Shown here piece after piece: positions 2,968-63,640 of a stretch of DNA of 64,000 bases. A program made the translations under genes and the position numbers. Each line of letters opens with the position of its first letter. Within the stretch, counting starts at the first letter, position 1. The notes under the pieces are model-generated. The model was not told the origin of the DNA. It was given only the letters and a program-made list of their open reading frames with translations, and made no database searches. The DNA comes from Ottowia flava (GTDB lineage Bacteria; Pseudomonadota; Gammaproteobacteria; Burkholderiales; Burkholderiaceae_C), in assembly GCF_008017535.1 (NCBI RefSeq), contig NZ_VRUA01000001.1:124001-188000 (forward strand), written 5' to 3'.

Positions 2968-3036
2968 ATAAAACTATCAAAACCGTAGCTGCCAGCGCAG
3001 GTGGGTCTAGCGCTGGAGGCCGTTTTCTCTTGAAAT
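2968..3036 (+). repeat. Dispersed repeat copy R1
   Basis: About 65-70 bp with the family pattern: AT-rich ACTATCAAAA arm, core GTAGCTGCCAGCGCAG, central TCTAGCGCTGGAGGCC and a T-rich arm. It lies in the 235-bp divergent gap between the HELGH gene and the Cys-rich gene at 3118. Part of the window-wide family described under findings. Confidence 0.75.
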
Positions 3037-3117
3037 CGGCGCAACGCCACAACCCTCCGGCACAGCGCGCAGCCATGCCCAGGCCAGCCGCACGCCCCGC
3101 AGCGGCACAATGCCGCC

Positions 3118-3507
3118 ATGTCCGCCCACCGCATCACCACCGCCGACGAACTGCGCGCCCTGGTCGCCCAGCGCGGCGCCGCGACCGGGTGCGCCTGCGG
3201 CGTCGGCCGCTGCGACGGCTGGACCAGCCTGACCGAAGAGCGCTGGCCCACCGCGCAGATGGTGCACGTCGGCAGCTTGCGCGACCTCGACGTGGCCGAG
3301 CCGACGTACGAAGAGCAGCACCCGAACGGCACGCGCTACGACGCAGCCGACGCGCCGGTGGCGATCGCCTTCTTCCCCTACAACCGCTGCGAGCTGTGGC
3401 GCTGCAACGCGTGCCAACGCCTGCTGCTGCGCTACACCGAGTACGGCGGCTACTACGTCGACCACCGCGTGCGCGAGCTGGGCCCGGCCACGCCGATCCT
3501 GGACTGA
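3118..3507 (+). CDS. Hypothetical Cys-rich protein, possible zinc-binding
   Basis: A 129-residue cytoplasmic-looking protein. It has two Cys clusters: CACGVGRC near residues 25-32 and CELWRCNACQR near residues 98-108, which together could bind a zinc ion. Between them is a stretch rich in Asp, Glu, Pro and aromatic residues, and after the second cluster YTEYGGYYVDHR. I do not recognise the family. The ATG at 3118 follows directly after the repeat-containing intergenic region; no strong Shine-Dalgarno sequence is visible. It is a single gene, convergent with glsA, with 74 bp between the stops. Confidence 0.65.
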   Translation: MSAHRITTADELRALVAQRGAATGCACGVGRCDGWTSLTEERWPTAQMVHVGSLRDLDVAEPTYEEQHPNGTRYDAADAPVAIAFFPYNRCELWRCNACQRLLLRYTEYGGYYVDHRVRELGPATPILD

Positions 3508-3581
3508 GTTAACGCAGCGCCTGGGCGCGCGCCGAGGCGGGCGCGGTGCGCCCTGCCCCACGCCCCACGCTCAGAAGAGCA

Positions 3582-4514
3582 TCAGAAGATCGACAACCCG
3601 GTGCGCCGGGTGAACAGCTCCAGCGCCTTCTGCCCCAGCACCGAGTTGCCGGTCTCGTCCAGCGCGGGCGACCACACCACCAGCGTCAGGTGGTCGGGCA
3701 CCACGGCCAGAATGCCGCCGCCCACGCCGCTCTTGCACGGCAGGCCGATGCGGTAGGCGAATTCGCCCGCCGCGTCGTAGGTGCCGCAGGTCAGCATCAG
3801 CGAATTGATGCGCCGCGTCTGCCGCTCGGTCATGATGTGCGCGCCCGGGCGCACCGGGTGGGCGCCGTCGCGGCTCAGATAGGCCGCCGCGCGCGCCAGT
3901 TGCAGGCAGCTCATCGACAGCGCGCACTGGTGAAAGTACAGGTCCAGCACGGTGTCGACCGCGTGGTCAACGCGGCCAAAGCTCTTCATGAAGTTGGCCA
4001 GCGCCTGGTTGCGAAAGCCGGTGGCGGCCTCGGAGGCGGCCACTTCCTCGTCGTAGCCGATGGGCTCGCCGCTCAGGTCGCTGAGGAACGCGCTGAGCTG
4101 CGCGCAGGCGGCGTCGCCGTACAGCCCCACCAGCCGGTCCGCCACCGCGATCGCGCCGGCGTTGATGAACGGGTTGCGCGGCGTGCCGTGCTCGAACTCC
4201 AGCTGCACCAGCGAGTTGAAGGCCGTGCCCGAGGGCTCGCGCCCGATGCGCGACCACAGCTGCTCCTCGCTCAAGTGCTGCATCGCCAGCGTCAGCGTGA
4301 AGACCTTGGAGATGCTCTGGATCGAGAACGGCAGCGCGCCGTCGCCCGCCACCGCCTCCTGGCCGTCGCAGGTGCGCAGCGCCATGCCGATGTGCCCGGC
4401 CGGCACCCGCGCCAGCGCCGGAATGTACTGGGCCACTTCACCGCGCGGCCCGTGCGCGCGCAGCTCGGCCTGCAAGGTGGCGGTGATCTCTTCGAGGATG
4501 GCTTGAAAATCCAT
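3582..4514 (-). CDS. glsA: Glutaminase A
   Basis: Hydrolyses L-glutamine to glutamate and ammonia; serine-dependent beta-lactamase-fold enzyme in the cytoplasm. The 310-residue length is typical. Visible hallmarks are the SISK (S-x-x-K) catalytic motif in PFSIQSISKVF, the NPFINAGAI segment, and the C-terminal KSGVGGGI loop. The frame is open upstream to 4601, but the ATG at 4514 gives the normal N-terminus MDFQAILEEI. It is monocistronic with a 298-bp upstream gap that carries repeat copy R2. Confidence 0.95.
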   Translation of the reverse strand: MDFQAILEEITATLQAELRAHGPRGEVAQYIPALARVPAGHIGMALRTCDGQEAVAGDGALPFSIQSISKVFTLTLAMQHLSEEQLWSRIGREPSGTAFNSLVQLEFEHGTPRNPFINAGAIAVADRLVGLYGDAACAQLSAFLSDLSGEPIGYDEEVAASEAATGFRNQALANFMKSFGRVDHAVDTVLDLYFHQCALSMSCLQLARAAAYLSRDGAHPVRPGAHIMTERQTRRINSLMLTCGTYDAAGEFAYRIGLPCKSGVGGGILAVVPDHLTLVVWSPALDETGNSVLGQKALELFTRRTGLSIF

Positions 4515-4662
4515 GGGGCTGGCGGCGGACGGTGCGGTCGATGACCGATTGTGGCGGCTGGCGCTGCGCGGTGCTGGCGCGCGGCCGATGGCCCCGGACA
4601 CGCCGTGGCGGCGGCGCGCCTGCCAAGCGCCTGCCGCAGCGTGCCGCCGGGCACACCGCTTG

Positions 4663-4724
4663 TTTCGCTATGGATTAAATAGCTGTCAGCGCTGACCGCT
4701 GTAGCGCTGGCGGCTGATTTCATG
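4663..4724 (+). repeat. Dispersed repeat copy R2
   Basis: About 60 bp between glsA and the EamA gene. It has the TTCGCTATGGATTAAATAGC arm, a slightly diverged core (AGCTGTCAGCGCTGACC) and the GTAGCGCTGGCGGCTGATTT arm. Same orientation as R1. Confidence 0.7.
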
Positions 4725-4812
4725 CCCAAACCGCTTTCTGCCCCTCTCCGCCCGGCGTGCGAATGGCCTGTGGCCGACGCTGCCGCGCCGCTGGCCCCAC
4801 AATCCGCCCACG

Positions 4813-5778
4813 ATGAAGCCCGATACCGCCCCTGCCATCCCCCCGGCGCCCGCGCCGGCTGCCGCGCACACCTTCGGCCCTACCCTGCCGGTGCGCCACC
4901 TGCTGCTGGCGGTGGCCGTGGTGGCGGTGTGGGGCACCAACTTCCCGATCATCAAGGTGGCGCTGGCGCACCTGCCGCCGCTGCTGATGGCCACGTTGCG
5001 CTTTGCGTTGGCGGCGCTGCCGGCGCTGTGGCTGATCCCGCGGCCCAAGGCCAGTTGGCGCAACCTGGCGGCGTTCGGCATCCTGATCGGCGTGGGGCAG
5101 TTCGGGCTGCTGTTCATTTCGATGACGCACTTCATCTCGCCCGGCCTGGCCTCGCTGGTGATCCAGGTGCAGGTGTTCTTCACCATCGGCATGGCGATGG
5201 CGATGACGGGCGAGCGCGTGCGCGGCTTTCAGGTGCTGGCCATGCTGCTGGCGGTGGCGGGCATCGTGCTGATCGGCTGGCACGCGGTGACGGATGGCGC
5301 ATCCATCACGCCGCTGGGGCTGGTGATGATCCTGCTGGCGGCGATGGCCTGGGCGGGCGGCAACATCGTCAGCCGCGCCGCCGGGCGCGTGGACGCGGTG
5401 GGCTACATGGTGTGGTCCAGCCTGTTCGCGGTGCCGCCCCTGCTGCTGCTGTCGCTGTGGCTGGAAGGCTGGCCCGCGATCCGCGACGGCATCGCCGCGG
5501 CCGACTGGGGCACCTGGGCCGCCGTGCTGTGGCAGGCCGTCGGCAACACCCTGTTCGGCTACGCCGCCTGGGCCTGGCTGCTGGTGCGCTACCCCGCGGC
5601 GAGCGTGACGCCGATGGCGCTCCTGGTCCCGGTGTTCGGCATGGGCTCGTCGGCGCTGTGGCTGGGCGAATCACTGCCCGGCTGGAAGATGCTGGCCGCG
5701 CTGCTGGTGATCGGCGGCCTGACGATCAACGTGCTGTGGCCGCGGCTGCAGGCGCGCTGGCGCGCAGCGCGCGTCTGA
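4813..5778 (+). CDS. EamA-family (DMT) transporter
   Basis: A 321-residue inner-membrane protein of the drug/metabolite transporter superfamily. Two EamA repeats are visible: the first begins at about residue 30 with VVAVWGTNFPIIKVAL and the second at about residue 165 with the PLGLVMILLAAMAWAGGNIVS segment. About ten hydrophobic helices are expected. A 28-residue Pro/Ala-rich cytoplasmic N-terminus precedes the first helix. It resembles YedA/EamA exporters of amino acids or metabolites, but the substrate is unknown. The start at 4813 is the only ATG near the first helix. Single gene between repeats R2 and R3. Confidence 0.9.
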   Translation: MKPDTAPAIPPAPAPAAAHTFGPTLPVRHLLLAVAVVAVWGTNFPIIKVALAHLPPLLMATLRFALAALPALWLIPRPKASWRNLAAFGILIGVGQFGLLFISMTHFISPGLASLVIQVQVFFTIGMAMAMTGERVRGFQVLAMLLAVAGIVLIGWHAVTDGASITPLGLVMILLAAMAWAGGNIVSRAAGRVDAVGYMVWSSLFAVPPLLLLSLWLEGWPAIRDGIAAADWGTWAAVLWQAVGNTLFGYAAWAWLLVRYPAASVTPMALLVPVFGMGSSALWLGESLPGWKMLAALLVIGGLTINVLWPRLQARWRAARV

Positions 5779-5889
5779 ACACCGCCGCGCGGCACCCATT
5801 GGCCGCGTGGGCCAACCCGACCGGGCAAGCGCCTGACTTGCGCACCCGATTGCGCGCCGCCAGCGCCCAGGTGGTCAGACGCGTTTTTC

Positions 5890-5946
5890 GCTCTGCTTTT
5901 GGGAGCTGCCCGCGCAGATAGCTGTAGGGCTCGCAGCCTATTTCTC
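5890..5946 (+). repeat. Dispersed repeat copy R3
   Basis: Roughly 57 bp downstream of the EamA gene. Core GGAGCTGCCCGCGCAGATAG followed by CTGTAGGGCTCGCAGCC and a T-rich end. It lies in the convergent gap before the gene at 5987. Confidence 0.7.
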
Positions 5947-5986
5947 TACTTTTCCGCCTGGGCCTGCGCGCCGCGGGGCACGCCCG

Positions 5987-6424: not shown

Positions 6425-6627
6425 GACAGGACTCCTTGCGAGTTGACAATGGTTCATTGTTGGCAGATCCCCTTGCCGGTCAGGTATGCAAATGCAATTT
6501 CCTGCCTCAGCAAGCGGGGCGAAATCAGCGCGCGGTGGTGCCAAGTCAGCCGTACCGGACGCTACACAAACCGAAGCTGCCAGCGCATTGTGGTCAAGCT
6601 CTGCAGCCCGATCTGACACCCAATCTT

Positions 6628-7050: not shown

Positions 7051-7243
7051 GGCGGTTTCCGGTGGACTTTGTACAGATGCAATCGATTGTTAACAAAGCC
7101 TTCACCGTGCGGTGTAGGAGATGACCGGCTGCGCGCCGCAGTCCAGACCCACGGCATCCGGTGCCCACGACAGCCCTACCGCCCTGAGGCCAGGTGCCTC
7201 GGCAGGCTGGCGGCGGGCGTCAGGGGTGTGACTTCTCGCTGCC

Positions 7244-8361: not shown

Positions 8362-8431
8362 GATGAGGATGCGCCGGCGGGGATCGGTGCCTAGAGTGCG
8401 GTCATGGCCTTCAACCCACCGCTGACCTCCC

Positions 8432-14387: not shown

Positions 14388-14400
14388 GGAACGCTCTCCT

Positions 14401-14454
14401 TTCGATAGCTGCTCGCGCTTGTCCCTGTAGCGCTAGCCGCTGTTTTGATGCTGA
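14401..14454 (+). repeat. Dispersed repeat copy R4
   Basis: About 54 bp filling most of the phaC-phaA intergenic gap: TTCGATAGCTGCTCGCGC core followed by CTGTAGCGCTAGCCGC and a TTTTGATG arm. It lies within the pha transcription unit. Confidence 0.75.
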
Positions 14455-14463
14455 ATCTGAAAA

Positions 14464-16405: not shown

Positions 16406-17251
16406 TTACGCGGAGGGCGCGCCAACCTCGTCGATCCAGATGCAGGCGGCCATGCGGCCGGTGCCGCCCAGCGCCGACTGGTCGCGCCGGAACGAGAAGT
16501 AGCGATCCGGCCGCGCCACGGTGCACCAAGCGTCGCTGCCGTCGTTACCGTACACCGCCGTGACGCCGTTCGTGAGCAGCACGCGCCGCGCAAGCGCGGG
16601 CAGATCCGCCAGGAACTTGCCGGGCGTGTGCGGCGCAAAGGCCGGGTCTGCGCCAGCGTCCTGCGCGAGGAACGCCTCCCGCACCTCAGCGCCCACCTCG
16701 AAGGCACGTGGTCCAATGCAGGGGCCCAGCCAGGCGATGATCGGATCAGCGCCTTGATTCGCTTCATTATCGATAGCTGGCTGCGCCCGTCCCGCCTGCC
16801 CTGCAGGCCGAAACTGCTCCAAAGTCGCCTGGAGCACACCCGATGCGAGCCCGCGCCAGCCCGCATGCGCAGCGGCCACGGCGCTGCCGCTGGCGGTGGT
16901 CAGCAACACGGGAAGGCAGTCGGCCACCATCACCGTGCAGGCGACGTCGCTTCGAGTGCTGAACGCCGCATCCGCCGTGGTGCCATCGGCAAGATCCGGT
17001 GAGAGCGCGCACACGCCCGTGCCATGCACCTGATGCAGAAACACGGGCCGCGCAGCCCCCAGCGCCTGCGCCAGCAACGCGCGGTTGGCAGCCACGGCAT
17101 CAGCGGCATCGCCCACGTGATCGCCTAGGTTGAAATACTGATAAGGCGCGGGTGAAGCGCCATCGGCAGGCGACGAACCGCGCGTGGTGAACAGCGCCCG
17201 CACCCGCGTGGGTGCCGGCCAGTCGGGTACAAACCAGCGCGCGTCGACCAT
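16406..17251 (-). CDS. pgeF: Peptidoglycan editing factor PgeF (polyphenol oxidase/laccase-domain family)
   Basis: YfiH/DUF152-type protein; in E. coli PgeF removes misincorporated L-Ser from peptidoglycan precursors, and homologues show multicopper or purine-nucleoside activity in vitro. The metal-site motifs are present: FLHQVHGTGV, VADCLPVLL and AAHAGWRGL. Length is 281 residues from ATG 17251; a GTG at 17260 is also in frame and overlaps the maiA stop. Residues around 155-175 (AGQAGRAQPAIDNEANQGAD) are not expected in the family and are encoded by repeat copy R5. Located between maiA and phaC. Confidence 0.93.
   Translation of the reverse strand: MVDARWFVPDWPAPTRVRALFTTRGSSPADGASPAPYQYFNLGDHVGDAADAVAANRALLAQALGAARPVFLHQVHGTGVCALSPDLADGTTADAAFSTRSDVACTVMVADCLPVLLTTASGSAVAAAHAGWRGLASGVLQATLEQFRPAGQAGRAQPAIDNEANQGADPIIAWLGPCIGPRAFEVGAEVREAFLAQDAGADPAFAPHTPGKFLADLPALARRVLLTNGVTAVYGNDGSDAWCTVARPDRYFSFRRDQSALGGTGRMAACIWIDEVGAPSA
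16760..16816 (+). repeat. Dispersed repeat copy R5, inside pgeF
   Basis: Core ATCGATAGCTGGCTGCGCCC with CCTGCAGGCCGAAACTG as distal arm, about 57 bp and in frame with pgeF on the opposite strand. It adds a polar insert at a loop position before the LGPCIGP motif. Confidence 0.75.
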
Positions 17252-22374: not shown

Positions 22375-22385
22375 AATTTTCGAGT

Positions 22386-22440
22386 GAAACTGGCTTGTAG
22401 CCCTACAACCATCTGCGCAAGCAGCTATTTAAACCATAGC
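22386..22440 (-). repeat. Dispersed repeat copy R6
   Basis: Minus-oriented copy: on the minus strand AAATAGCTGCTTGCGCAG then ATGGTTGTAGGGCTACAAGC. It lies in the 3' region between the terminator and the stop of the endopeptidase gene at 22477. Confidence 0.8.
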
Positions 22441-22476
22441 AACTACAAGCCGCAAGAAACAGCCTGCTGCGGCCGG

Positions 22477-27403: not shown

Positions 27404-28291
27404 TCAGTCATGCAAGCCGCGCTCGTCGGGCTCGTCCGTCGAGGTGCTGACGATGCTCGCGTGCTCGCCACGCGCGCGCCGCCAGACGTAGATCACGTAG
27501 CCCGACAGCGCATAGGCGACAAAGAAAATGAAAAGGATGGTCGCCGGCTCGATGCTGACGATGGCGATCAAGAGCGCGATCAGCACCAGCACGATGAAGG
27601 GCACGCTGCGGCGCCCACCAAAGTCCTTGAAGCTGTAGTACGGCACGTTGGTGACCATGGTCAGACCCGCGAACAGCGTCACGGCGAAGGTGATCCAGGC
27701 CAGGTCGGCCCGCACGATCGGCTCGCCGCCGAACAGCGAGATCACCGCACGGAAGATCGGCACTTCGCGGTGCGACGTCAGCATGGCGCTGGTCAGCCAG
27801 ATCAGCCCCGCCACCAGCGCCGCGGCCGCGGGCGAAGGCAGGCCCTGGAAGTAGCGCTTGTCCACCACGGCGGTGTTGACGTTGAAGCGCGCCAGGCGCA
27901 GTGCCGCGCAGGCGCAGTACACGAACGCGGCAATCCAGCCCCAGCGACCCAGCGGGCGCAGCGCCCATTCGTACGCCAGCAGCGCAGGCGCGGCGCCAAA
28001 GCTGACCATGTCGGACAGCGAATCCATCTGTTCGCCGAACGCGCTTTGCGTGCCCGTCATGCGCGCCACTCGACCGTCCAGGCTGTCGAGCACCATCGCC
28101 GCGAAAATGCCGGTGGTGGCCAGGTCAAACCGACCGTTCATCGCCATGACGATGCCGTAGAACCCGCCGAACAGCGCCGCCAGCGTGAACAGGTTGGGCA
28201 GCACGTAGATGCCCTTGCGACGCACGCGCTGCGACATGTCGTGGCCCCAGGCGGGGTGGCGCGGCTCGGAATGCGGATCGGGTGGGTTCAT
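27404..28291 (-). CDS. pssA: CDP-diacylglycerol-serine O-phosphatidyltransferase
   Basis: Inner-membrane enzyme making phosphatidylserine, precursor of phosphatidylethanolamine. The CDP-alcohol phosphotransferase motif is present as DSLDGRVARMTGTQSAFG and DSLSDMVSFG (D-x2-DG-x2-AR-x8-G-x3-D-x3-D). About seven hydrophobic helices; 295 residues from ATG 28291, or 277 from an internal ATG at 28237 (MSQRVRRKG), which may be the real start because family members start close to the RRKGIYVLPNLFT segment. Gene order ilvC-pssA-leuA is typical of Burkholderiales. Confidence 0.93.
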   Translation of the reverse strand: MNPPDPHSEPRHPAWGHDMSQRVRRKGIYVLPNLFTLAALFGGFYGIVMAMNGRFDLATTGIFAAMVLDSLDGRVARMTGTQSAFGEQMDSLSDMVSFGAAPALLAYEWALRPLGRWGWIAAFVYCACAALRLARFNVNTAVVDKRYFQGLPSPAAAALVAGLIWLTSAMLTSHREVPIFRAVISLFGGEPIVRADLAWITFAVTLFAGLTMVTNVPYYSFKDFGGRRSVPFIVLVLIALLIAIVSIEPATILFIFFVAYALSGYVIYVWRRARGEHASIVSTSTDEPDERGLHD

Positions 28292-28294
28292 AGG

Positions 28295-28350
28295 TCAAAC
28301 GGGTCGCCAGCGCTACAACCATCTGCGCAAGCAGCTATCAAAATCAAAGC
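28295..28350 (-). repeat. Dispersed repeat copy R7
   Basis: Minus-oriented: TTTTGATAGCTGCTTGCGCA then GATGGTTGTAGCGCTGGCG. It lies immediately upstream of pssA. The rest of this 329-bp gap holds the ilvC terminator (28552-28575) and otherwise nothing I can identify. Confidence 0.82.
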
Positions 28351-28551
28351 GCATCGGCGCGCATGGCAGGTCGCAATGTGCCGACCGACACGCCCTGAAG
28401 TGTACGGGGCGCCGCCGCTGCGGCGCGATCATTCGCACGCGCTCGGGAAATCCATGAGCGGCTGCCGGCTCCGCCCAGGACCCGCGCGAAGGCGCAGGCA
28501 CGCACTCTGCATTCCGCCTGTCACAGGGCTGGAGAGCCATGTGAAATGCAA

Positions 28552-28620: not shown

Positions 28621-29746
<1,126 letters not shown>

Positions 29747-30238
29747 TTAAACGCGCAACAGACGTTCGCCCCGCCCGATGCCGCTGGCGCCGGTGCGCAC
29801 GGTCTCGAGAATGGCGGACTTGTCGATCGAATTGAGGAAGGCGTCGTGCTTGCTTTGGTCGCCCGTCAGCTCGACCGTGTAGCTCTTGTCGGTGACGTCG
29901 ATGATGCGGCCGCGGAAGATGTCGCAGGTGCGCTTGATCTCCTCGCGCTCCTTGCCGACGGCGCGCACCTTGACCATCATGTGCTCGCGCTCGATGTAGC
30001 TGCCTTCGGTCAGGTCGACCACCTTCACCACCTCGATCAGGCGGTTCAGGTGCTTGGTGATCTGCTCGATGGTGTCTTCCGAGCCGCGCGTCTGGATGGT
30101 CATGCGCGAGAGGCTTTCGTCCTCGGTCGGCGCGACGATCAGCGATTCGATGTTGTAGCCACGGGCCGAGAACAGGCCCACCACGCGGGACAGGGCGCCC
30201 GCTTCGTTTTCAATCAGAACAGCGATGATGTGTTTCAT
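29747..30238 (-). CDS. ilvH: Acetolactate synthase small (regulatory) subunit
   Basis: Confers valine feedback inhibition on the catalytic subunit. The 163-residue protein starts MKHIIAVLIENEAGALSRVVGLFSARGYNIESL, the ACT domain, with SRMTIQT and a C-terminal ALS_ss_C domain (FRGRIIDVTDKSYTVELTG). Typical IlvH length. The gene lies directly downstream of ilvI with a 132-bp gap that contains repeat R9. Confidence 0.96.
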   Translation of the reverse strand: MKHIIAVLIENEAGALSRVVGLFSARGYNIESLIVAPTEDESLSRMTIQTRGSEDTIEQITKHLNRLIEVVKVVDLTEGSYIEREHMMVKVRAVGKEREEIKRTCDIFRGRIIDVTDKSYTVELTGDQSKHDAFLNSIDKSAILETVRTGASGIGRGERLLRV

Positions 30239-30311
30239 GTGTCAGAGCCCTCTTTTCGCCGCCCTCCCCCGCCACCGGTAAGTGGCAGGCTTGGCGCACG
30301 ATAGAATCGTC

Positions 30312-30372
30312 TTGCTATCTAAAAAGTAGCTGCCCGCGCAGATTGCTCTATGGCTAGCAGCCGATTTGGCTT
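30312..30372 (+). repeat. Dispersed repeat copy R9
   Basis: TTGCTATCTAAAAAGTAGC arm, core GTAGCTGCCCGCGCAG and CTCTATGGCTAGCAGCCGAT arm; full-length copy between ilvI and ilvH. It runs into the ilvI stop codon (TAA at 30373-30371). Confidence 0.83.
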
Positions 30373-36258: not shown

Positions 36259-37488
36259 TTACCTACCCATGGGAGTTTGTGAATTTGCGTTGTCGGGCAG
36301 GAACAATTGCTGCACGTCGCTCAGGAAATCGAAGCCGCGCGCGGTCGGCCGCCACCAGGCGCCGTCCTGCTCCAGCCAGCCGTTTTGCTCTGCTTCTGAT
36401 AGCTGACTGCGCACGCTGCTCGGGGGCAAACCGGTCTTTTCAGTGAAATCCTGCACCGTGAAGCCGTCGCGCAGGCGCAGCGCGTTGACCATGTATTCAA
36501 ACGGCAGGTCGCGCCGTGTCACCTCGTGTTCCTGCGCCACCGCGTCGCCCGTCAAAGCCTTGTCCATGTACAGATCGGGCTGGCGGTGGCGCACCTGGCG
36601 CACCACGCGGTGGGCAAAGCTGATCTTGCCGTGCGCGCCGGCGCCAATGCCCAGATAGTCGCCGAACTGCCAGTAATTCAGGTTGTGCACGCAGCGGTGG
36701 CCGGCGCGCGCGTAGGCCGACACTTCGTAGCGCTCCATGCCCGCGTCGGCGGTGCGCGCGATCAGGTGGTCCAGCATGTCCCAGGCCGTGTCGTCGTCGG
36801 GCACCTTGGGTGGGAACTTGGCGAACACCGTGTTCGGCTCGATCGTCAGGTGGTAGAGCGACAGGTGTGGCGGCGCAAAGGCCAGCGCGGTGTCGACATC
36901 GGCCTTCAGCTCATCCAGCGTCTGGCCGGGCAGCGCGTACATCAGGTCGAGGTTGAAGGTGTCGAAGCTGCGCGCCGCTTCTTCCACGGCAGCGCGCGCC
37001 TGCGCGCCGTCGTGCACGCGGCCGAGGGCCTTCAAATGCGCGTCGTTGAAGCTCTGCACCCCAATCGACAGGCGCGTGACGCCCGCAGCGCGGAAGGCGG
37101 CGAAGCGCTCGCGCTCGAAGGTGCCGGGGTTGGCCTCCAGCGTGATCTCGCAGATGGGCGTCAGTGGCAGGCGCGCACGCAGGCCGGCGATCAGCTGGTC
37201 GATGGCATCGGGAGAAAACAGGCTGGGCGTGCCGCCGCCGATGAAGATGCTGTGCACCGGCCGGCCCCAAATCAGCGGCAGGCTGGCCTCCAAGTCGGCC
37301 AGCACGGCGGCGATGTAGCGTTGCTCCTGCGCCCTCGCGTCCGTGCCTTCCCGCCGCTCATGCGAATTGAAATCGCAGTACGGGCATTTGCGCAGGCACC
37401 AGGGCAGGTGCACGTACAGCGACAGCGGCGGCAGCGCCGGCAACTGCAGCGTGCCGGGCCGCATGTAGTGCTGAATATCGTGGGGCAT
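36259..37488 (-). CDS. hemW: Radical SAM heme chaperone HemW
   Basis: Inserts heme into respiratory enzymes; related to but distinct from the coproporphyrinogen dehydrogenase HemN. The 409-residue protein has the radical SAM cluster CLRKCPYCDF (CxxxCxxC) near residue 32, FIGGGTPSLF, and LEANPGTFE. HemW characteristics such as NLNYWQFGDYLGIGAGAHGKI are present. The C-terminal winged region contains KTGLPPSSVRSQLSEAEQNGWL, which may carry an old copy of the dispersed repeat (R10). Downstream of rdgB, same direction. Confidence 0.94.
   Translation of the reverse strand: MPHDIQHYMRPGTLQLPALPPLSLYVHLPWCLRKCPYCDFNSHERREGTDARAQEQRYIAAVLADLEASLPLIWGRPVHSIFIGGGTPSLFSPDAIDQLIAGLRARLPLTPICEITLEANPGTFERERFAAFRAAGVTRLSIGVQSFNDAHLKALGRVHDGAQARAAVEEAARSFDTFNLDLMYALPGQTLDELKADVDTALAFAPPHLSLYHLTIEPNTVFAKFPPKVPDDDTAWDMLDHLIARTADAGMERYEVSAYARAGHRCVHNLNYWQFGDYLGIGAGAHGKISFAHRVVRQVRHRQPDLYMDKALTGDAVAQEHEVTRRDLPFEYMVNALRLRDGFTVQDFTEKTGLPPSSVRSQLSEAEQNGWLEQDGAWWRPTARGFDFLSDVQQLFLPDNANSQTPMGR
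36384..36440 (+). repeat. Possible dispersed repeat copy R10, inside hemW
   Basis: TTGCTCTGCTTCTGATAGCT arm and core TGATAGCTGACTGCGCACG match the family in about 13 of 15 core positions, but the distal arm is diverged. It is read in frame by hemW. Treat as tentative. Confidence 0.4.
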
Positions 37489-37565: not shown

Positions 37566-38168
37566 TCAGCCCAGCCAGCGCTCGCGCATCAGCGTGATCA
37601 TGGCGCGGCTGGCGTGGCCGCGGTGGCTGTGGGCATGTTTGACGTCCGGGGGCAGCTCGGCAAAGGTCTTGCCGAGTTCGGGCAGAAACATGATGGGGTC
37701 GAAGCCAAAGCCGCCTTCGCCCGTTGGCGCGCGGGCGATTTCGCCCACCACACGGCCGACGGCGATCAGCGGCTCGGGGTCGTCGGCGCTGCGCAGCGCG
37801 ACCAGGGTGCTGACCATGGCGGCGCGGCGGTGGTCGACGCCCTGCATCTGCTCCAGAAGCGCGCGCACGTTGTTGGCGTCGCCCTTGTCGTAGCCGAACT
37901 GCGTGGCGTAGTACGCCGTGTCCACGCCCGGCAAGCCACCAAACGCGTCGACGCACAGGCCGGCGTCGTCGGCGATGGCGGGCAGGCCGCTTTCGCGCGC
38001 GGCGTGGCGCGCCTTGGTCAACGCGTTTTCGACAAAGGTGCGGTACGGCTCAGGCGCTTCGCCGATGGCCAGGTCGCCCTGGCGCACGAGTTGCATGCCC
38101 AAAGGGGCCAACAGCGTCTGCAATTCGGCAAGCTTGCCCGCGTTGTTGGACGCCAGTACGATTTTCAT
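37566..38168 (-). CDS. rdgB: dITP/XTP pyrophosphatase (RdgB/HAM1)
   Basis: House-cleaning nucleotide pyrophosphatase removing dITP, ITP and XTP. The 200-residue protein begins MKIVLASNNAGKLAELQTLLA (SxNxGK motif) and has SGLPAIADDAGLCVDAFGGLPGV and EGGFGFDPIMFLPE; the catalytic Asp lies in DDAG. Length is standard. The stop is 78 bp from the hemW start. The start codon overlaps the edge of repeat R11. Confidence 0.96.
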   Translation of the reverse strand: MKIVLASNNAGKLAELQTLLAPLGMQLVRQGDLAIGEAPEPYRTFVENALTKARHAARESGLPAIADDAGLCVDAFGGLPGVDTAYYATQFGYDKGDANNVRALLEQMQGVDHRRAAMVSTLVALRSADDPEPLIAVGRVVGEIARAPTGEGGFGFDPIMFLPELGKTFAELPPDVKHAHSHRGHASRAMITLMRERWLG

Positions 38169-38229
38169 ATAAATATGGCTCCAGCCCTACAGCAACCTGC
38201 GCAGCTAGCTATCAAATCAGTAGCGATTG
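38166..38229 (-). repeat. Dispersed repeat copy R11, forming the end of rph
   Basis: Minus-oriented copy with TACTGATTTGATAGCTAGC core and GCGCAGGTTGCTGTAGGGC. It fills the whole gap between rph and rdgB and supplies the rph stop codon (TGA at 38214-38212) and its last residues. Confidence 0.82.
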
Positions 38230-50560: not shown

Positions 50561-50797
50561 GGTCGGTCCGTGAAAGCGGGTGGGCAGCAGCGACCCACTT
50601 TGGGCAGGGAACTGGGCGTTGGCCCCAGAGGACATTGCTCGGGCAGCTACCGATTCAAGAGCAGGCTACGCGGCTTGCGCAGGTGCGCTGGCACTTGATC
50701 GCCGCAGCGCGTGGCCGGTGCGGGGTGCGGCGACGCGAACGCCATCGGCGCGCGGCTTCGGGCCGACACCATACCTGATGCGGCGCGGCCCCGCGCG

Positions 50798-51075: not shown

Positions 51076-51109
51076 GCGGGCAGCGAAGCAGGTGGGATGA
51101 AGGCGCTGC

Positions 51110-51171
51110 TTGCTATACAAAGAGAAGCTGGTTGCGCAGGTGGTTGTAGGGCCAGAGACCGATTTGACTGG
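51110..51171 (+). repeat. Dispersed repeat copy R12
   Basis: TTGCTATACAAAGAGAAGCT arm, core GCTGGTTGCGCAGGTGGTTG, then TAGGGCCAGAGACCGATTTG. Full-length copy upstream of lysR. Confidence 0.82.
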
Positions 51172-51351
51172 ATTTGTGCCGCTACGCCCACCGCGCGCGG
51201 TCGGCCCGCGCTGACCGCTTGCCCGCTCGCTCCGGCCGGCAGACATTCCGTCTGCGCCATCTACCCATCGCCATTCGCGATGCCCTGACTTGGTTTTGCT
51301 GAGAGAATGGCAAAAAGCCTTCTTGAAGCAAGAAGCCACAACCCGCCCACT

Positions 51352-52311
51352 ATGAAACTCACCGAACGCAGCTTTGCCCGCCGCATCGACCTGACCAGCT
51401 TGCAGCTGTTCGTGGCCGTGTGCGAGGCCGGCAGCATCGGCAAGGCGGCCGAGCGGGAATTCATCGCCGCGTCGGCCGTCAGCAAGCGCCTGGCCGACCT
51501 GGAAGCGGCGCTGGACACGCCCCTGCTCTACCGCCATGCGCGCGGGGTCGACCTGACGCCGGCCGGTCAAAGCCTGTTGCACCACGCACGCAACGTGCTG
51601 TATGGGCTGGAAAAAATGCAGAGCGAGCTGAGCGAATACGCCGACGGCGTGCGCGGCCATGTGCGCGTGCACGCCAGCATTTCGGCCATCGTGCAGTTTC
51701 TGCCGGACGATTTGGGCAGCTTTGTGCGCGCGCACCCGCAGGTCAAGATCGACCTGGAAGAGCACTTGTCCGCCGACGTGGTGCGCGCCGTGCAGGAAGG
51801 CGCGGCCGACCTGGGCATTTGCAACGCCAGCGCGCTGGCGGCCGGTGGCGCGGCGCTGCAGTCGCTGCCGTACCGGCACGACGATTTGGTGCTGGTGGTG
51901 CCTGCAGGCCACGCCCTGTCTGCGCAGCCAGCTATCGAATTCGCAGAAAGCCTGGACTTTGACCACGTCGGCCTGCACGCTGGCAGCTCCATCGCGCTGG
52001 CCATGCACCAGGCGGCGGCGCAGGCCGGGCGGGCGATTCGCCTGCGCATCCGCGTGACCGGGCTGGACGCCATGTGCCGCATGATCGACAACGGCCTGGG
52101 CGTGGGCGTGATGCCGGCGCGCGCGTTTGAATTGATGCGCGCCGCCGGCGCCCTGCACGCCGTGCCCCTCACCGACGCCTGGGCGCGGCGCGACATCCGC
52201 CTGATTGCGCGCGATTTCAAGACCTTGCCCGTGACTGCGCGGGCGCTGGTCGACCACCTGCAGGCCGATGAACACCTGCAGGCCGATCCGCCGCTGGCGC
52301 ACGCGGCCTGA
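51352..52311 (+). CDS. LysR-family regulator next to leuC
   Basis: A 319-residue regulator. The helix-turn-helix is near residues 12-70 (LTSLQLFVAVCEAGSIGKAAEREFIAASAVSKRLADLE) and a periplasmic-binding-like effector domain follows. The gene is divergent from none; it precedes leuC by 45 bp in the same direction, so it probably is co-transcribed or controls the leu genes. Residues about 185-200 (AGHALSAQPAIEFAES) are partly encoded by repeat copy R13. The ATG at 51307 is in frame but adds a non-conserved tail, so 51352 is preferred. Confidence 0.9.
   Translation: MKLTERSFARRIDLTSLQLFVAVCEAGSIGKAAEREFIAASAVSKRLADLEAALDTPLLYRHARGVDLTPAGQSLLHHARNVLYGLEKMQSELSEYADGVRGHVRVHASISAIVQFLPDDLGSFVRAHPQVKIDLEEHLSADVVRAVQEGAADLGICNASALAAGGAALQSLPYRHDDLVLVVPAGHALSAQPAIEFAESLDFDHVGLHAGSSIALAMHQAAAQAGRAIRLRIRVTGLDAMCRMIDNGLGVGVMPARAFELMRAAGALHAVPLTDAWARRDIRLIARDFKTLPVTARALVDHLQADEHLQADPPLAHAA
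51899..51950 (-). repeat. Dispersed repeat copy R13, inside lysR
   Basis: On the minus strand GATAGCTGGCTGCGCAGACA followed by GGGCGTGGCCTGCAGGC. In frame with the lysR protein around the PAGHALSAQPAIEF segment. Confidence 0.65.
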
Positions 52312-54773: not shown

Positions 54774-54942
54774 CATCCCCCTGAGCCGCTGACGCGGCTT
54801 CCCCCTTCTCTCGCTTCGCGGGAAGGGGGACAACGCCGGTCGCCGCCGCGGGTGCGGCGACGGCGTTCGCTGGTGGGGGCGTGGGTGCCACGGGCGGCAC
54901 CGCTTGCCTGCGGTAAGCTTGGTGGGCCAAATCCCCGTTTTT

Positions 54943-55001
54943 TAATCAAATCAGGCTCTAGCGCTACTGCAATCTGCGCGGGCAGCTATTAAAAGAGAAG
55001 C
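54943..55001 (-). repeat. Dispersed repeat copy R14
   Basis: Minus-oriented: TTTAATAGCTGCCCGCGCAG followed by ATTGCAGTAGCGCTAGAGC and TGATTTGATT. It ends only nine bases before the leuB ATG, so the leuB ribosome binding region borders the repeat. The rest of the leuD-leuB gap contains a GC-rich hairpin around 54784-54830. Confidence 0.82.
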
Positions 55002-55009
55002 AAAATACC

Positions 55010-56080
55010 ATGAAGATCGCCATTCTTCCCGGCGACGGGATCGGTCCGGAAATCACGGCGGAAGCCGTCAAGGTGCTGAACGCGCTGGGCCTGAAGTTCG
55101 AAATGGAAACGGCGCCGGTCGGCGGTGCGGCGTACGAGGCGTCGGGCCATCCGCTGCCGGAAGCCACGTTGAACTTGGCCAAGTCGGCCGACGCCATCCT
55201 GTTTGGCGCGGTGGGCGATTGGAAGTACGACACGCTGGACCGCCCGCTGCGGCCCGAGCAGGCCATCCTGGGCCTGCGCAAGGCGCTGGGCCTGTTCGCC
55301 AACTTCCGCCCGGCGATTTGCTATGAACAGCTGGTGAGTGCCTCCAGCCTGAAGCCCGAGTTGGTGGCCGGCCTGGACATCCTCATCATCCGCGAGCTGA
55401 CGGGCGACATCTACTTCGGCCAGCCGCGCGGCAAGCGCACGGCCACGGACGGCCACTTCCCGGGCACCGAGGAAGCCTTCGACACCATGCGCTATTCCAA
55501 GCCGGAGATCGAGCGTATCGCCCGCGTCGCCTTTGAAGCCGCGCGCAAGCGCAACAAGAAGGTGACCAGCGTCGACAAGGCCAACGTGCTGGAGACCTTC
55601 CAGTTCTGGAAAGACGTGGTGACCGAGGTGCACAAGGACTACCCGGACGTCGCGCTGGACCACATGTACGTCGACAACGCCGCCATGCAACTGGTCAAGG
55701 CGCCCAAGGCGTTTGACGTGATCGTCACCGGCAACATGTTCGGCGACATCCTGAGCGACGAGGCATCGATGCTGACCGGCTCCATCGGCATGCTGCCCAG
55801 CGCCAGCCTGAACGACAAGAAGCAAGGCCTGTACGAACCCAGCCACGGCAGCGCACCCGACATCGCCGGCAAGGGCGTGGCCAACCCGCTGGCCACCATC
55901 CTCAGCGCCGCGATGATGCTGCGCTTCAGCCTCGGCCAGCCCGAAGCCGCCGACCGCATTGAAACCGCCGTCAAAGCCGTGCTGGCCCAAGGCCTGCGCA
56001 CGCCCGACATCTACAGCGAAGGCACGACCAAGGTCGGCACGCGCGAGATGGGTGATGCGGTGGTCAAGGCGCTGAAGTAA
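55010..56080 (+). CDS. leuB: 3-isopropylmalate dehydrogenase
   Basis: NAD-dependent oxidative decarboxylation of 3-isopropylmalate. The 356-residue protein begins [16 protein letters not shown] and has [18 protein letters not shown], the substrate/metal region [53 protein letters not shown], and [18 protein letters not shown], all diagnostic for LeuB. The ATG at 55010 sits just beyond repeat R14. Confidence 0.97.
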
Positions 56081-58372: not shown

Positions 58373-58375
58373 CCC

Positions 58376-59698: not shown

Positions 59699-59710
59699 AC
59701 GGGCGCGCCC

Positions 59711-60622: not shown

Positions 60623-60631
60623 TTAAAGGGT

Positions 60632-60684
60632 CAAATTGGGCTGAAACGCCCACTGGCCTTGCGCAACCAGCTATCAAATCAGGA
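60632..60684 (-). repeat. Dispersed repeat copy R15
   Basis: Minus-oriented: CTGATTTGATAGCTGGTTGC then GCAAGGCCAGTGGGCG; slightly shorter and more diverged. It lies right after the stop of the DUF4130 gene. Confidence 0.68.
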
Positions 60685-60728
60685 TCAGATTCGGCGACAG
60701 GCAGGCCATGACCTGCGCGCGGTCAGCC

Positions 60729-62024
60729 TCACTTGCGCTGCCACGCGGCAGCGAAGAAGCCGTCCGTGCCATGGCGGTGCGGCCACAGCCGCAGGAACTG
60801 GCCTGCGGGCACGCGGCCCTCGCCTTCGCTCTCAGTCGCCGGGCTGCACAGCGCCGTGGCGTCCGGCACCTTGAGCGTCGTCAGCACTTCGGCCACGTTC
60901 AGCGGCACGAAATCCGCGTGCGCGGCGCCGAAGGCGGTGGCGATGGCCTCGTTCTCTTCCGACAGCACGCTGCAGGTGGCGTAGACCAGGCGCCCGCCCG
61001 GTTTGACCAGGCGCGCGGCGCTGGTCAGGATGGCCTGCTGCTTGGCGGTCAGCTCTTGCACGTCCTTGGGCGACTGGCGCCATTTCAGGTCGGGGTTGCG
61101 GCGCAGCGTGCCCAGGCCCGAGCACGGCGCGTCGACCAGCACGCGGTCCATCTTGCCGGCCAGCCGCTTGATGCGTTCGTCGCGCTCGTGCGCGATAGCG
61201 ACCGGGTGCACGTTCGACAGCCCGCTGCGCGCCAGGCGAGGCTTCAGCGCCGCCAGTCGGTGCGCCGACACGTCAAACGCGTACAGCCGCCCGGTGCTGC
61301 GCATGCCCGCGCCAATCGCCAGCGTCTTGCCACCGGCGCCGGCGCAAAAGTCCGCCACCATCTCGCCGCGCTTGGCGTCCAGCAGCAGCGCCAGCAGTTG
61401 CGAGCCCTCGTCCTGCACTTCAAGTGCGCCTTCGGTGAACAGCGCCAGCTTCTGCAAGGGCGGTTTGCCGTGCACGCGCAGGCCCCAGGGCGAATGCGGT
61501 GTTGCTTCAGATTGAATAGCTGCCCGCGCAAGTCCCTTCTCGGCTTCAGCCCGTTTCATCTTCAAAGTGTTGACACGCAGGTCGAGCGGCGCCGTCTCCA
61601 GCAGGTTGGCCGCGAGTGCGTCGAATTCGTCGCCGACCTGCGCCCGCAGCGGTTCGACCAGCCAGGCCGGCAGGTTGTGCACGTCTTCGGGGCGCAGCTC
61701 GGCCGCCGTCACGGCGTCGCACGACTTGAGCCAGGATTTTTCCTGCGGGCTGAGCGCGCCATTCAAAAAGTCGCGCGAGCCGTGAAAGCCCAGGATGGCC
61801 AGGCGCCGCTCGCGCGCGCCGCTGCCGGCGCGGGCAAGGTGTTCGTACAAAGGCTTGCGCCGCAGCACGGCGTAGGCGGTCTCGGCCAGCGTGGCGCGCT
61901 CGCGCGGGCCCAGCTGGCGGTGGTCACGGAAATAGCGGGACACCACCGCATCGGCCGGGTGGTCCAGGCGCAGAACCTGCAGCACCAGTTCACTGGCGTG
62001 GTTCAGCAAGGCGTTGGGATGCAT
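60729..62024 (-). CDS. RsmB/NOP-family RNA (cytosine-5) methyltransferase
   Basis: A 431-residue class I methyltransferase for m5C in RNA. The catalytic core has DFCAGAGGKTLAIGA (SAM), DAPCSGLGTLRRNPDLKW (first Cys) and YATCSV (second Cys of the NOP/RsmB mechanism). The N-terminal part (PNALLNHASELVLQVLRLDHPADAVVSRYFRDHR) does not look like the NusB domain of E. coli RsmB, so I do not use that symbol. ATG 62024 preferred. Residues about 190-210 (KRAEAEKGLARAAIQSEATP) contain sequence from repeat R16. Confidence 0.9.
   Translation of the reverse strand: MHPNALLNHASELVLQVLRLDHPADAVVSRYFRDHRQLGPRERATLAETAYAVLRRKPLYEHLARAGSGARERRLAILGFHGSRDFLNGALSPQEKSWLKSCDAVTAAELRPEDVHNLPAWLVEPLRAQVGDEFDALAANLLETAPLDLRVNTLKMKRAEAEKGLARAAIQSEATPHSPWGLRVHGKPPLQKLALFTEGALEVQDEGSQLLALLLDAKRGEMVADFCAGAGGKTLAIGAGMRSTGRLYAFDVSAHRLAALKPRLARSGLSNVHPVAIAHERDERIKRLAGKMDRVLVDAPCSGLGTLRRNPDLKWRQSPKDVQELTAKQQAILTSAARLVKPGGRLVYATCSVLSEENEAIATAFGAAHADFVPLNVAEVLTTLKVPDATALCSPATESEGEGRVPAGQFLRLWPHRHGTDGFFAAAWQRK
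61499..61560 (+). repeat. Dispersed repeat copy R16, inside the RsmB-like gene
   Basis: TTGCTTCAGATTGAATAGCT arm and core TAGCTGCCCGCGCAAG, then CTTCTCGGCTTCAGCCCG. Read in frame by the methyltransferase gene on the opposite strand, adding about 18-20 residues. Confidence 0.76.
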
Positions 62025-62144
62025 GGGGGGATTGTCGCATTCGGCTCCACGCATGCGCGGACGGCTTGTGCGGCGCGCGTGCGGCTTGCATGCGGGTCGC
62101 GCGGCGGCCGGGGCCAGCGACACGGTGATAGGGCAGCGCTGCCG

Positions 62145-62210
62145 TTTGCTATCTTCTTGCTAGCTGACCGCGCAATCCCCCGTAGGGCCAGAGGCGCATT
62201 CCCCTTGAAA
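62145..62210 (+). repeat. Dispersed repeat copy R17
   Basis: TTGCTATCTTCTTGCTAGCT arm with core CTAGCTGACCGCGCAATC and CGTAGGGCCAGAGGCGCATT, then TTGAAA. Near full-length copy between the RsmB-like gene and purN. Confidence 0.8.
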
Positions 62211-62255
62211 ACCTCTCGGACCGGCCCGCGCGCGCCGTCGCGGCCTATCCGCCTA

Positions 62256-62843
62256 TCAGCCGCCCTGCTCTTGCAGCCACGCCGCGATGGCGCGCGGGTA
62301 CAGCAAGTGTTCCTGGCTCAACACACGCGCGCCAAGCGTGGCGGCGCTGTCGCCCGGCAGCACCGGCACCACCGCCTGGTCCAGGATGTCGCCGTGGTCC
62401 AGCTCGGCCGTCACGCGGTGCACGGTGGCACCGGCAAAGCGGCAACCCATGTCGATGGCGCGCTGGTGCGTGTGCAGGCCGGTGAAGGCCGGCAGCAGGC
62501 TGGGGTGGATGTTGATCAGCCGCCCGTCAAAGCGCGCGACAAAGCCGGGCGTCAGGATGCGCATGAAGCCGGCCAGCACCACCAGCGCGGGCGCGTGCTG
62601 CTCGATGGCGTCGCCCAACGCCGCGTCAAACGCCTCGCGGCTGGCGTAGGCCTGGTGGTCGACGACGTGCGTGGCCAAGCCGGCGTCCCGTGCCAGCGCC
62701 AGCCCCGGCGCCTGCGGGCGGTTGCTGATCACGGCGGTGACGCGCGCGCTCAGGCGCTCGGCCCAGCGCTCGCGCTCGGCGGCCTGCACGATGGCCGCCA
62801 TGTTGCTGCCGGTGCCGGAGATCAGGATGACGATGTGCTGCAT
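62256..62843 (-). CDS. purN: Phosphoribosylglycinamide formyltransferase
   Basis: Third step of purine synthesis, transfers formyl from 10-formyl-THF to GAR. The 195-residue protein begins MQHIVILISGTGSNMAAI, has VLAGFMRILTPGFVARFDGRLINIHPSLLPAF with the catalytic Asn-His region, and GATVHRVTAELDHGDILDQ with the catalytic Asp. Length and motifs are canonical. ATG at 62843; the gene runs toward the RsmB-like gene, in an order known from Burkholderiales. Confidence 0.95.
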   Translation of the reverse strand: MQHIVILISGTGSNMAAIVQAAERERWAERLSARVTAVISNRPQAPGLALARDAGLATHVVDHQAYASREAFDAALGDAIEQHAPALVVLAGFMRILTPGFVARFDGRLINIHPSLLPAFTGLHTHQRAIDMGCRFAGATVHRVTAELDHGDILDQAVVPVLPGDSAATLGARVLSQEHLLYPRAIAAWLQEQGG

Positions 62844-62923
62844 GAAGGGGGTGGATTATCGGGCAGCCCCGTGCGACGGGCGACGCGGTGGTGCGCCCGC
62901 CCGCGCCTCGCTATGCTTGCCGC

Positions 62924-63640
62924 ATGACCTTGCCCCGACCTCTGACCCCGACCGAAACCCGCGTGCTGGGCACGCTGCTGGAAAAGGCGCGCACCGTGCC
63001 CGACACCTACCCGCTGTCGCTCAACCTGGTGGTGACCGGCTGCAACCAGAAGACCAGCCGCGAACCGGTGATGAACGTGAGCGAAGCCGAGGCGCAGGAA
63101 GCGCTGGACGATCTGAAGGCGCTGTCCCTGGTGATCGAATCGCACGGCAGCCGCGTCGCCAAGTACGAACACAACCTTCAGCGCGTGCTGCAGATCCCCG
63201 ACCAGTCGGCCGTGCTGCTGGGCCTGCTGATGCTGCGCGGACCGCAGACGGCGGCCGAGCTGCGCACCAACGCCGAGCGCTGGCACCGCTTTGCCGACAT
63301 CTCGTCGGTAGAGGGCTTTCTGAACGAGCTGGCCGAGCGCGCCGACGACAAAGGCGGCCCGCTGGTCGTGCTGCTGCCGCGCGCGGCCGGTGCGCGCGAG
63401 GCGCGGTGGGCGCACCTGCTGGCGGGCGAAGTGGACGCATCCGCTATGCAAAGCGTAGCTGGTCGTGCAGATGGTTCTAGGGCTGAAGGCCAATTTGACC
63501 GTATTTCTGCGTTGGAAGCTGAAGTGGCAGCCCTGCGTGCCACGGTAGAGCGCCTGTGCGACGCACTGGGCGTGTCGCCTGGGGAACGGGAGCCGACCGA
63601 AGCGCGTGCTACAACCACGGACTCACCGGAGACACACTGA
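62924..63640 (+). CDS. DUF480 (YceH-type) protein
   Basis: A 238-residue protein of the DUF480 family, two winged-helix domains: [45 protein letters not shown] and [43 protein letters not shown]. The C-terminal coiled coil is [23 protein letters not shown]. Between domain 2 and the coil, residues around 173-195 ([20 protein letters not shown]) come from repeat R18. The stop shares one base with the next start (TGATG). Confidence 0.92.
63442..63505 (+). repeat. Dispersed repeat copy R18, inside the DUF480 gene
   Basis: CCGCTATGCAAAGCGTAGC arm, core GTAGCTGGTCGTGCAG, then TTCTAGGGCTGAAGGCCAAT. In frame and on the same strand as the gene, adding about 20 residues. Confidence 0.8.

Follow-up and report, generated by a model that had tools for sequence, protein, structure and literature searches.

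What are the short sequences that recur along the genome of Ottowia flava, and how do they spread? A stretch of 64,000 nucleotides of this genome (contig NZ_VRUA01000001.1, positions 124,001 to 188,000; here called the window) holds many copies of an element with the core ATAGCTGN3GCGCA. The original prediction described about 18 dispersed copies of about 60 bp and likened them to a miniature inverted-repeat transposable element (MITE) or a repetitive extragenic palindromic (REP) element. We found that the repeat is real and genome-wide and that its copies hold orthologous positions across genera. Copies also lie inside genes without inserted DNA, which suggests that the element is not a jumping element but a DNA tag. 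The best-supported mechanism, which we hold tentatively and as a nearly balanced judgment, would be a long DNA recognition motif that lacks a covarying fold, resembles the DNA uptake sequences (DUS), and is spread by transformation-driven molecular drive.

A repeat family found throughout the genome

The O. flava genome comprises 4.12 Mb in 53 contigs. In it we found 319 exact matches to ATAGCTGN3GCGCA, 171 on one strand and 148 on the other, versus 3 for the reversed pattern. The core is thus in excess above chance across the genome, and both orientations occur, as first described. The shorter pattern ATAGCTGN3GCGC occurred 448 times exactly, versus 3 for its control. In the window, 31 sites matched the core with two or fewer mismatches, versus 9.7 ± 2.9 in shuffled sequences (maximum, 18).

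An iterated nhmmer profile was run on 460 kb, made up of the window and 20 stretches of contig C1, with a cutoff of E < 0.01. Its seed was 16 window copies, namely, 15 of the 18 first listed and one at 6573. We obtained 136 matches, 20 within the window and 116 outside it; the reversed sequence gave 1. The 16 seed copies made up the profile and so do not count as independent recoveries, in contrast to those at 16773, 36399, 51921, and 50636 and to the 116 from the other stretches. All 18 copies of the original list were matched, those starting at 16760 and 36384 weakly (Table 1). The window has two copies that were absent from that list, at 6561 to 6609 (plus strand, 19.8 bits, part of the seed) and at 50614 to 50662 (minus strand, 26.8 bits). 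Scaling 136 copies per 460 kb to the genome gives, by extrapolation, roughly 1,200 copies.

A 68-bp motif without a covarying fold

We determined the anatomy of the element from 127 copies aligned on the core, leaving out 9 of the 136 that had no usable core or flank. The conserved block runs from -16 to +51 relative to the core, which makes the element about 68 bp long and not about 60 bp. Its ends are sharp, the profile outside them is flat, and the total information is 61.0 bits. Nearly or fully invariant are CT at -11/-10, AGCT at 2 to 5, and GCGC at 10 to 13. Well conserved are A at 14, TAG at 23 to 25, GC at 27 and 28, and A/T tracts near -4, +40, and +49. The tract at +39/+40 reads TT in 90 of the 127 copies and AA in 26; that at -4/-3 reads TT in 62, AA in 31, and a mixture in 24. 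A/T tracts of one kind are as expected for shape readout. The element has a GC content of 49.5% (93 copies), versus 67% for the window.

We looked for a conserved fold. Strong mutual information was found only between near neighbors in the 127 copies, and among the 40 strongest pairs, none more than 5 columns apart exceeded the shuffled maximum of 0.173. There was no covarying stem by mutual information in these copies or by pair counts in 110 copies from relatives; the largest excess at any proposed stem pair was 0.10. RNAalifold on 20 window copies gave 2 pairs. By eye, no clear terminal inverted repeat was seen in the profile.

Placement, orientation, and spacing of copies

To place the copies, we used gene calls from a home-made caller and dropped 5 of the 136 copies at the ends of stretches. 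Of the 131 placed copies, 30 were in convergent, 55 in tandem, and 11 in divergent intergenic regions, and 35 were in genes. Called genes cover 385 of the 460 kb yet hold just these 35 copies, and the element is therefore underrepresented in coding sequence. Counted against intergenic regions of at least 60 bp, there were 30 copies for 42 convergent regions, 55 for 147 tandem regions, and 11 for 50 divergent regions; 89 of the 256 intergenic regions of at least 50 bp had a copy. Many copies had been said to sit against stop codons. This agrees with the richness of the convergent regions, but other copies lie just before start codons, and still others lie inside called genes. In tandem regions, 25 copies ran in the same direction as transcription and 30 in the opposite direction, with no strand preference. 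Overall, the strand split on contig C1 was uneven (82 plus and 54 minus copies).

Gap regularity was measured on one contig. The coefficient of variation (CV) was 0.774, versus 0.93 ± 0.07 when intergenic regions were sampled without replacement. A CV as low was reached in 7 of 500 of these nulls and in 0 of 500 uniform nulls. This stricter sampling null supersedes an earlier one in which intergenic regions were weighted by length (0 of 300).

In-gene copies are found on either strand and are read mainly in one frame per strand, with peptides such as A-L-E-P-S-A-R-A-A-T. We scanned ten copy-bearing proteins. In several of them (SucB-like, ABC-F-like, PBP1C-like, and DUF480), the copy lies between or beside domains; in the LysR and RsmB-like proteins, it lies within a domain of normal length.

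Comparison of in-gene copies with relatives

We took the carriers' copies in the leu, rlmD, and dapE regions and mapped their 150-bp flanks to low-copy or copy-free relatives; the comparison loci included 21 of 62 named loci without a match. The comparison covered 45 gene sites (14 in LysR, 12 in RlmD, 5 in PrmC, 5 in DapE, 1 in an ABC-F-like gene, and 8 in unassigned genes). In all 392 comparisons at these sites, the net length change was within 12 bp in 366, +13 to +29 bp in 14, and -13 bp or less in 12. None of the 392 showed a net gain of at least 30 bp. After removal of the 112 comparisons in which over 60 flank bases were unaligned, 280 were left at 44 sites, 257 of them within 12 bp, and the median net insertion was within 12 bp at all 44 sites. 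Genomes G170, G150, G151, and G156 (our labels) have some copies or relics, so that an insertion could not show there. Without these genomes and the poor flanks, 195 of 206 comparisons were within 12 bp, 11 were at +13 to +29 bp, and none lay beyond.

Protein lengths were examined as well. The Pfam match spans 208 residues for 205 profile positions in LysR and 70 for 70 in RsmB, with no 22-residue insert. The RlmD loop in carriers matches that of G133 and G093 in length, and the DapE loop in carriers is 5 to 7 residues longer than in G049, G133, and G154. Judging from these sequence comparisons, the copies inside genes appear not to be insertions. Comparison with empty orthologous sites, which had been suggested as a check on a mobile origin, thus gave no net insertion at in-gene sites; the one well-covered intergenic site, leuD-leuB, was longer in carriers.

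Codon usage differed over the element. In three genes, the fraction of A/T-ending codons in the element was 0.40 to 0.58 in carriers, versus 0.11 elsewhere in the gene; at the same positions in comparison genomes it was 0.21 to 0.31. Ranked by A/T-ending excess, the codon window of the element came third of 457 in RlmD and fourth of 302 in LysR. In DapE, the best such windows start at codons 40 to 43, and the element's own is unranked.

Shared sites, a lineage dialect, and relics

We counted cores in 150 genomes of the order, including that of O. flava. Of the 4 from its family, 2 had a plain excess, and no other genome did; one from a different family had 16 cores versus 6 for the control. 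Within genus g1 (O. flava and 24 other genomes), there were 3 to 610 exact cores per genome. A sequence-only covariance model, which gave at least 150 matches in 9 of 23 genomes and was useful only for setting apart low-copy genomes, had a single match each in G161, G173, G133, and G049.

Of 80 named loci anchored on LeuB, 18 had a copy at E < 0.01. They belong to Acidovorax, Alicycliphilus, Giesbergeria, Comamonas, Xenophilus, Polaromonas, Rhodoferax, and unnamed metagenome-assembled genomes. In the same set, no copy was found in other loci of Acidovorax, Giesbergeria, and Comamonas or in those of Variovorax (8 loci), Hydrogenophaga (5), Ramlibacter (2), Roseateles (3), and Ideonella (2). In 13 kb of the genome titled Acidovorax facilis DSM 649, two copies were present. 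On a LeuB tree of 99 rows, the carrier label (31 carriers) needs at least 19 changes, 9 of them forced by well-supported branches; the label is noisy, as it rests on one locus of 3 to 20 kb each, G171 (117 cores) is scored as a noncarrier, and leuB may itself recombine. One row of this tree, L098, comes from a contig titled Akkermansia muciniphila that encodes a Comamonadaceae-like LeuB (87%) and stands beside Limnohabitans; it is probably a mislabeled bin.

Among 98 loci, 25 carry the element upstream of leuB. Its orientation is the same in 23 of these and opposite in 1, and 1 locus has both. Other arrangements were seen between leuD and leuB. In L083, L107, and L040 (Comamonas testosteroni and kin), the element is drawn out, with a much longer piece separating two half-sites, and looks like a long palindrome. 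In L036 and L039 (genomes G159 and G172), the 159-bp region has instead a different, larger inverted repeat, GGACGCGAAGG ... TTCGCGTCC, perhaps of another repeat family.

The O. flava genome carries a lineage "dialect" of the center of the motif, also at shared sites. The center consensus tends to GCGCTTGnnnnnCAAGCGC in relatives and reads GCGCAGATGGTTGTAGSGC in O. flava. With each copy left out of its own model, the center log-odds exceeded zero in 116 of 127 O. flava copies, versus 4 of 110 copies from relatives. At shared sites, 6 of 7 O. flava copies were above zero when scored without leaving out. The log-odds were strong at leuB (16.5), YceH (23.2), and DapE (32.0) and weak at LysR, RsmB, and RlmD (3.2 to 6.5).

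We also found relics. Of 15 low-copy loci, 4 had their best, positive-scoring match at the orthologous site: RlmD in G156 (12.6 bits), RlmD in G150 (7.0 bits, with the O. flava profile only), DapE in G156 (7.6 bits), and DapE in G170 (11.6 bits, with the relatives' profile only). The remaining 11 had nothing or a minor match at that site. In G093, which was included in the same test, a true copy was found in DapE (30 to 34 bits) and none in RlmD.

Tests for mobility and for known families

Target-site duplications were not apparent. Flanking direct repeats of 2 to 9 bp were near the shuffled level in the 127 copies, with the largest departures at k = 3 (75 versus 64.1 ± 5.9) and k = 7 (2 versus 0.5 ± 0.8).

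A test for a co-occurring REP-associated tyrosine transposase (RAYT) had also been suggested. O. flava has one such gene (NF047646, 82.3 bits versus a cutoff of 80), with two oppositely oriented element copies beside it, one 723 bp upstream and the other 12 bp downstream. This single gene (L045, 9787 to 10485, contig C23) stands just before a long frame that looks, by eye, like a glutamate synthase. A copy within 500 bp of a Y1 transposase gene was also found in G160, G159, and G168. We found no match to the Y1 transposase in carriers G165, G166, G169, and G154, of which G166 has 392 cores and G166 and G154 are 99% complete. In 4 of 10 other carriers examined (G152, G157, G164, and G167), no copy of at least 14 bits was found in 7 kb around the Y1 gene. 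The complete genome of G163 has 20 matches to the Y1 (IS200-like) transposase family, several with equal scores, and one place was examined there. A RAYT gene flanked by copies is thus present in O. flava itself, but because several carriers have no Y1 match or no copy near the Y1 gene, we rejected a general RAYT association. With no covariation, no target-site duplication, no consistent RAYT link, and no in-gene insertion, the likeness to a MITE or REP element is poorly supported.

Searches of Rfam found the ilvH RNA alone reaching its gathering score in the window. A scan of positions 22 to 31 kb of the window at a loose E value gave one subthreshold match to STnc40 (21.9 bits, E 3.9) overlapping one copy. 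BLAST of one copy against 72,556 plasmids was uninformative: its 4 matches, three of which fell in Comamonadaceae, were partial and weak (E 0.1 to 6). The plasmid pVEIS01, a conjugative plasmid of another genus, had no match above 6 bits. That no named family has this core was part of the original prediction, and we found none in searches of one open-access library; the nearest named repeat, BRE, was compared by its description.

Copies and neighboring genes in the window

The coordinates are collected in Table 1. The ilvH RNA motif (RF02993, 78 bits; 30244 to 30311, minus strand) directly adjoins the element copy in the ilvI-ilvH region.

Table 1. Element copies and associated features of the window. 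Ends of copies were set from the 68-bp profile; scores are nhmmer bits.
Feature	Position	Strand	Score or support
Copy	2969..3036	+	42.3 bits
Copy	4663..4730	+	36.3 bits
Copy, convergent intergenic	5886..5953	+	32.9 bits
Copy absent from the original list	6557..6624	+	19.8 bits
Copy	14389..14456	+	27.6 bits
Weak copy, left half only (model positions 1-26), within called gene	16757..16824	+	16.1 bits, E 0.0045
Copy, convergent intergenic	22377..22444	-	44.0 bits
Copy	28287..28354	-	40.6 bits
Copy downstream of ilvH (gene on - strand)	29684..29751	+	41.8 bits; Pfam
Copy between ilvI and ilvH, adjoining ilvH RNA motif	30310..30377	+	39.9 bits; RF02993 at 30244-30311
Weak, tentative copy within called gene	36383..36450	+	15.4 bits, E 0.0074
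Copy between rph and Ham1-family gene	38161..38228	-	43.7 bits
Copy absent from the original list	50599..50666	-	26.8 bits
Copy	51108..51175	+	38.2 bits
Copy inside LysR-family gene, without insertion versus orthologs	51884..51951	-	23.2 bits
Copy between leuD and leuB; site and orientation common to other genera	54938..55005	-	42.8 bits
leuB, anchor for locus comparison	55010..56080	+	
Weaker copy, convergent intergenic	60623..60690	-	18.8 bits
Copy inside rsmB-like gene, domain length normal	61500..61567	+	25.8 bits
Copy	62144..62211	+	26.5 bits
DUF480 gene containing a copy	62924..63640	+	PF04337 at residues 7-156
Copy inside DUF480 gene, after domain	63439..63506	+	37.1 bits

Discussion

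We propose that the element may be an uptake signal. A component of the type IV pilus or competence machinery in these Comamonadaceae would bind the motif, with its fixed TAGCT and GCGC boxes and its A/T tracts, on incoming DNA. Motif-bearing DNA would be taken up and recombined more often, and better-matching alleles would displace worse ones. Molecular drive would in this way build and keep the motif where it does the least harm. If the specificity of the receptor shifted, the copies would drift to a new dialect; if biased uptake were lost, they would decay. Uptake, receptor, and drive are what we infer here. An in-place origin, use of both strands, tolerated in-gene sites, even spacing, dialects, and fading are what molecular drive by biased uptake predicts (PMC7811141, PMC2397512, PMC3630211). 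O. flava itself has at least one part of a competence machinery, a ComEC-family gene (PF03772) in an 839-residue open frame.

Transformation has been described in relatives. Acidovorax temperans, A. facilis, and Verminephrobacter eiseniae are reported to be naturally transformable, A. temperans by DNA of its own species only (PMC4212676). In V. eiseniae, heterologous DNA at 100:1 cut transformation about 10-fold, with no further decrease up to 1500:1, which the authors of that report read as selective binding (PMC4212676). In its account of transformation, the report names no uptake signal for Acidovorax or Verminephrobacter (PMC4212676). A study of Neisseria argues that recombination, and not point mutation, brings in many new DUSs (PMC2397512); such arrival would be in keeping, too, with sites at which many bases differ.

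As the available accounts describe them, DUS and uptake signal sequences (USS) have very many dispersed copies, fewer in coding sequence and relatively evenly distributed, and in this the present motif is like them (PMC3630211, PMC7811141, PMC2397512). Like USS, it has AT tracts flanking a conserved core and suited to shape readout; like DUS, it has lineage dialects (PMC3630211, PMC7811141, PMC2397512). The same sources explain the accumulation of these sequences by molecular drive (PMC3630211, PMC7811141, PMC2397512). Unlike them, the present motif occurs in Comamonadaceae, has another core, is 68 bp long versus about 10 to 31 bp, and has a density of one per ~3.4 kb versus ~1 kb; its uptake role is putative. 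Because its form differs in length, we do not file it as a proven member of either class.

The element shares with REP sequences and their paired form (REPIN) in REP/REPIN-RAYT systems the dispersed, mainly intergenic short repeats and a RAYT gene in the O. flava genome; unlike them, it has no palindrome by covariation, no in-gene insertion, and no consistent RAYT association. Rickettsia palindromic elements are short repeats in genes that have tolerated reading frames and arise by in-frame insertion. The in-gene copies recall them, with the difference that no insertion was seen here. BRE is a named repeat of Betaproteobacteria, described in Bordetella, Acidovorax, Polaromonas, Delftia, and Rhodoferax, among others (PMC3110155). 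It is given there as about 75 to 91 bp long, with an average GC content of 69.0% in Bordetella, often in tandem, and with 1 to 29 copies per genome (PMC3110155). The present element, at 68 bp, 49.5% GC, dispersed, and in ~1,200 copies, is set apart by that description of BRE and not by a comparison of letters.

Several observations weigh against an uptake signal. With its 68 bp and 61 bits, the motif greatly exceeds in length the uptake sequences known so far, which are given as 9 to 11 bp (PMC4212676) and, for USS, as 31 bp (PMC7811141). The spacing effect is modest under the strict null. ComEC, present in 24 of 25 genomes, does not distinguish carriers from noncarriers, and we rejected it as the gene that sets the two apart. 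Two further Acidovorax species gave no transformants, as that work reports (PMC4212676), and species-limited transformation can come from sequence divergence alone. The PrmC copy of O. flava keeps the ancestral center type (-21.9). In the close relative G165, the leuB copy has the O. flava type of center (+9.4), so that the dialect at this site is not private to the O. flava genome. Contrary to expectation, conservation of third codon positions was unremarkable at the carriers' element (rank 206 of 457 in RlmD and 148 of 302 in LysR). Some noncarriers may be former carriers, which would hide old insertions. Finally, the leuD-leuB region is longer in carriers, with a median of 95 bp (25 loci, 15 of them at 75 to 97 bp) versus 46 bp (73 loci), and an insertion is therefore possible at this site. 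The median gain at 14 leuD-leuB sites was 23.5 to 49 bp, which also points toward insertion.

The main rival is that the element is a site for an abundant chromosome-organizing or nucleoid protein of the family, with selection acting on the contact and a change of specificity producing the dialect. It would account for most of the facts behind the uptake proposal: the fixed boxes and A/T tracts, the lack of a covarying fold and of an orientation preference, the regular spacing, the in-gene copies without insertion, and the relics in some relatives. Selection would, however, have to act on roughly 1,200 sites, each of 68 bp, including those where the protein sequence is altered. By simple arithmetic, about 13 bits would suffice to mark 1,200 of 8.2 million positions, versus the 61 bits found. 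No candidate protein is known, among searches that looked only for the Y1 transposase and ComEC. We consider this explanation unlikely, though a serious contender.

We regard as improbable a mobile element of the REP/MITE type, with a transposase like the RAYT of O. flava to move it. Dispersed 68-bp units with sharp ends are what such an element would leave, and copies flank the RAYT gene at 723 and 12 bp and stand near Y1 genes in G160, G159, and G168; the longer leuD-leuB region in carriers and a consensus center in relatives in which GCGC can pair with GCGC also favor it. It is hard to reconcile with 392 in-gene comparisons lacking any net insertion of at least 30 bp, with 127 copies lacking target-site duplication, with the absence of covariation, or with the four carriers that have no Y1 match and the four whose Y1 genes are copy-free in 7 kb. 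An RNA-level element, either a transcription terminator or an mRNA-stabilizing hairpin, is very improbable: copies are commonest in convergent regions (30 over 42 regions of at least 60 bp) and the center is foldable in many relatives' copies, but convergent regions may just be the least constrained, tandem regions show no orientation bias (25 same, 30 opposite), copies lie in genes on either strand, no compensatory changes were found, and the consensus center of O. flava has lost its pairing.

Self-tagging for DNA uptake is known, by the account in PMC7811141, from two families, Neisseriaceae and Pasteurellaceae. The motif described here may possibly be the uptake signal of naturally competent Comamonadaceae, a reading somewhat more doubtful than the general mechanism favored above. 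It would then be a third, independently evolved system in a third family, with the longest motif known to us, and its dialects would have shifted together at many hundreds of sites.

If this is true, a third uptake system exists in bacteria common in soil and water (Acidovorax, Comamonas, Polaromonas, Rhodoferax, and their relatives), and the motif could account as well for the selective transformation described in Acidovorax and Verminephrobacter. With relatives at several stages at hand, one could then test how such signals arise, grow longer, switch dialect, and are lost. Even with another binding protein, about 1,200 sites of 61 bits that lie in genes, too, without insertion and that vary in concert from lineage to lineage would call for a mechanism beyond ordinary transposition.

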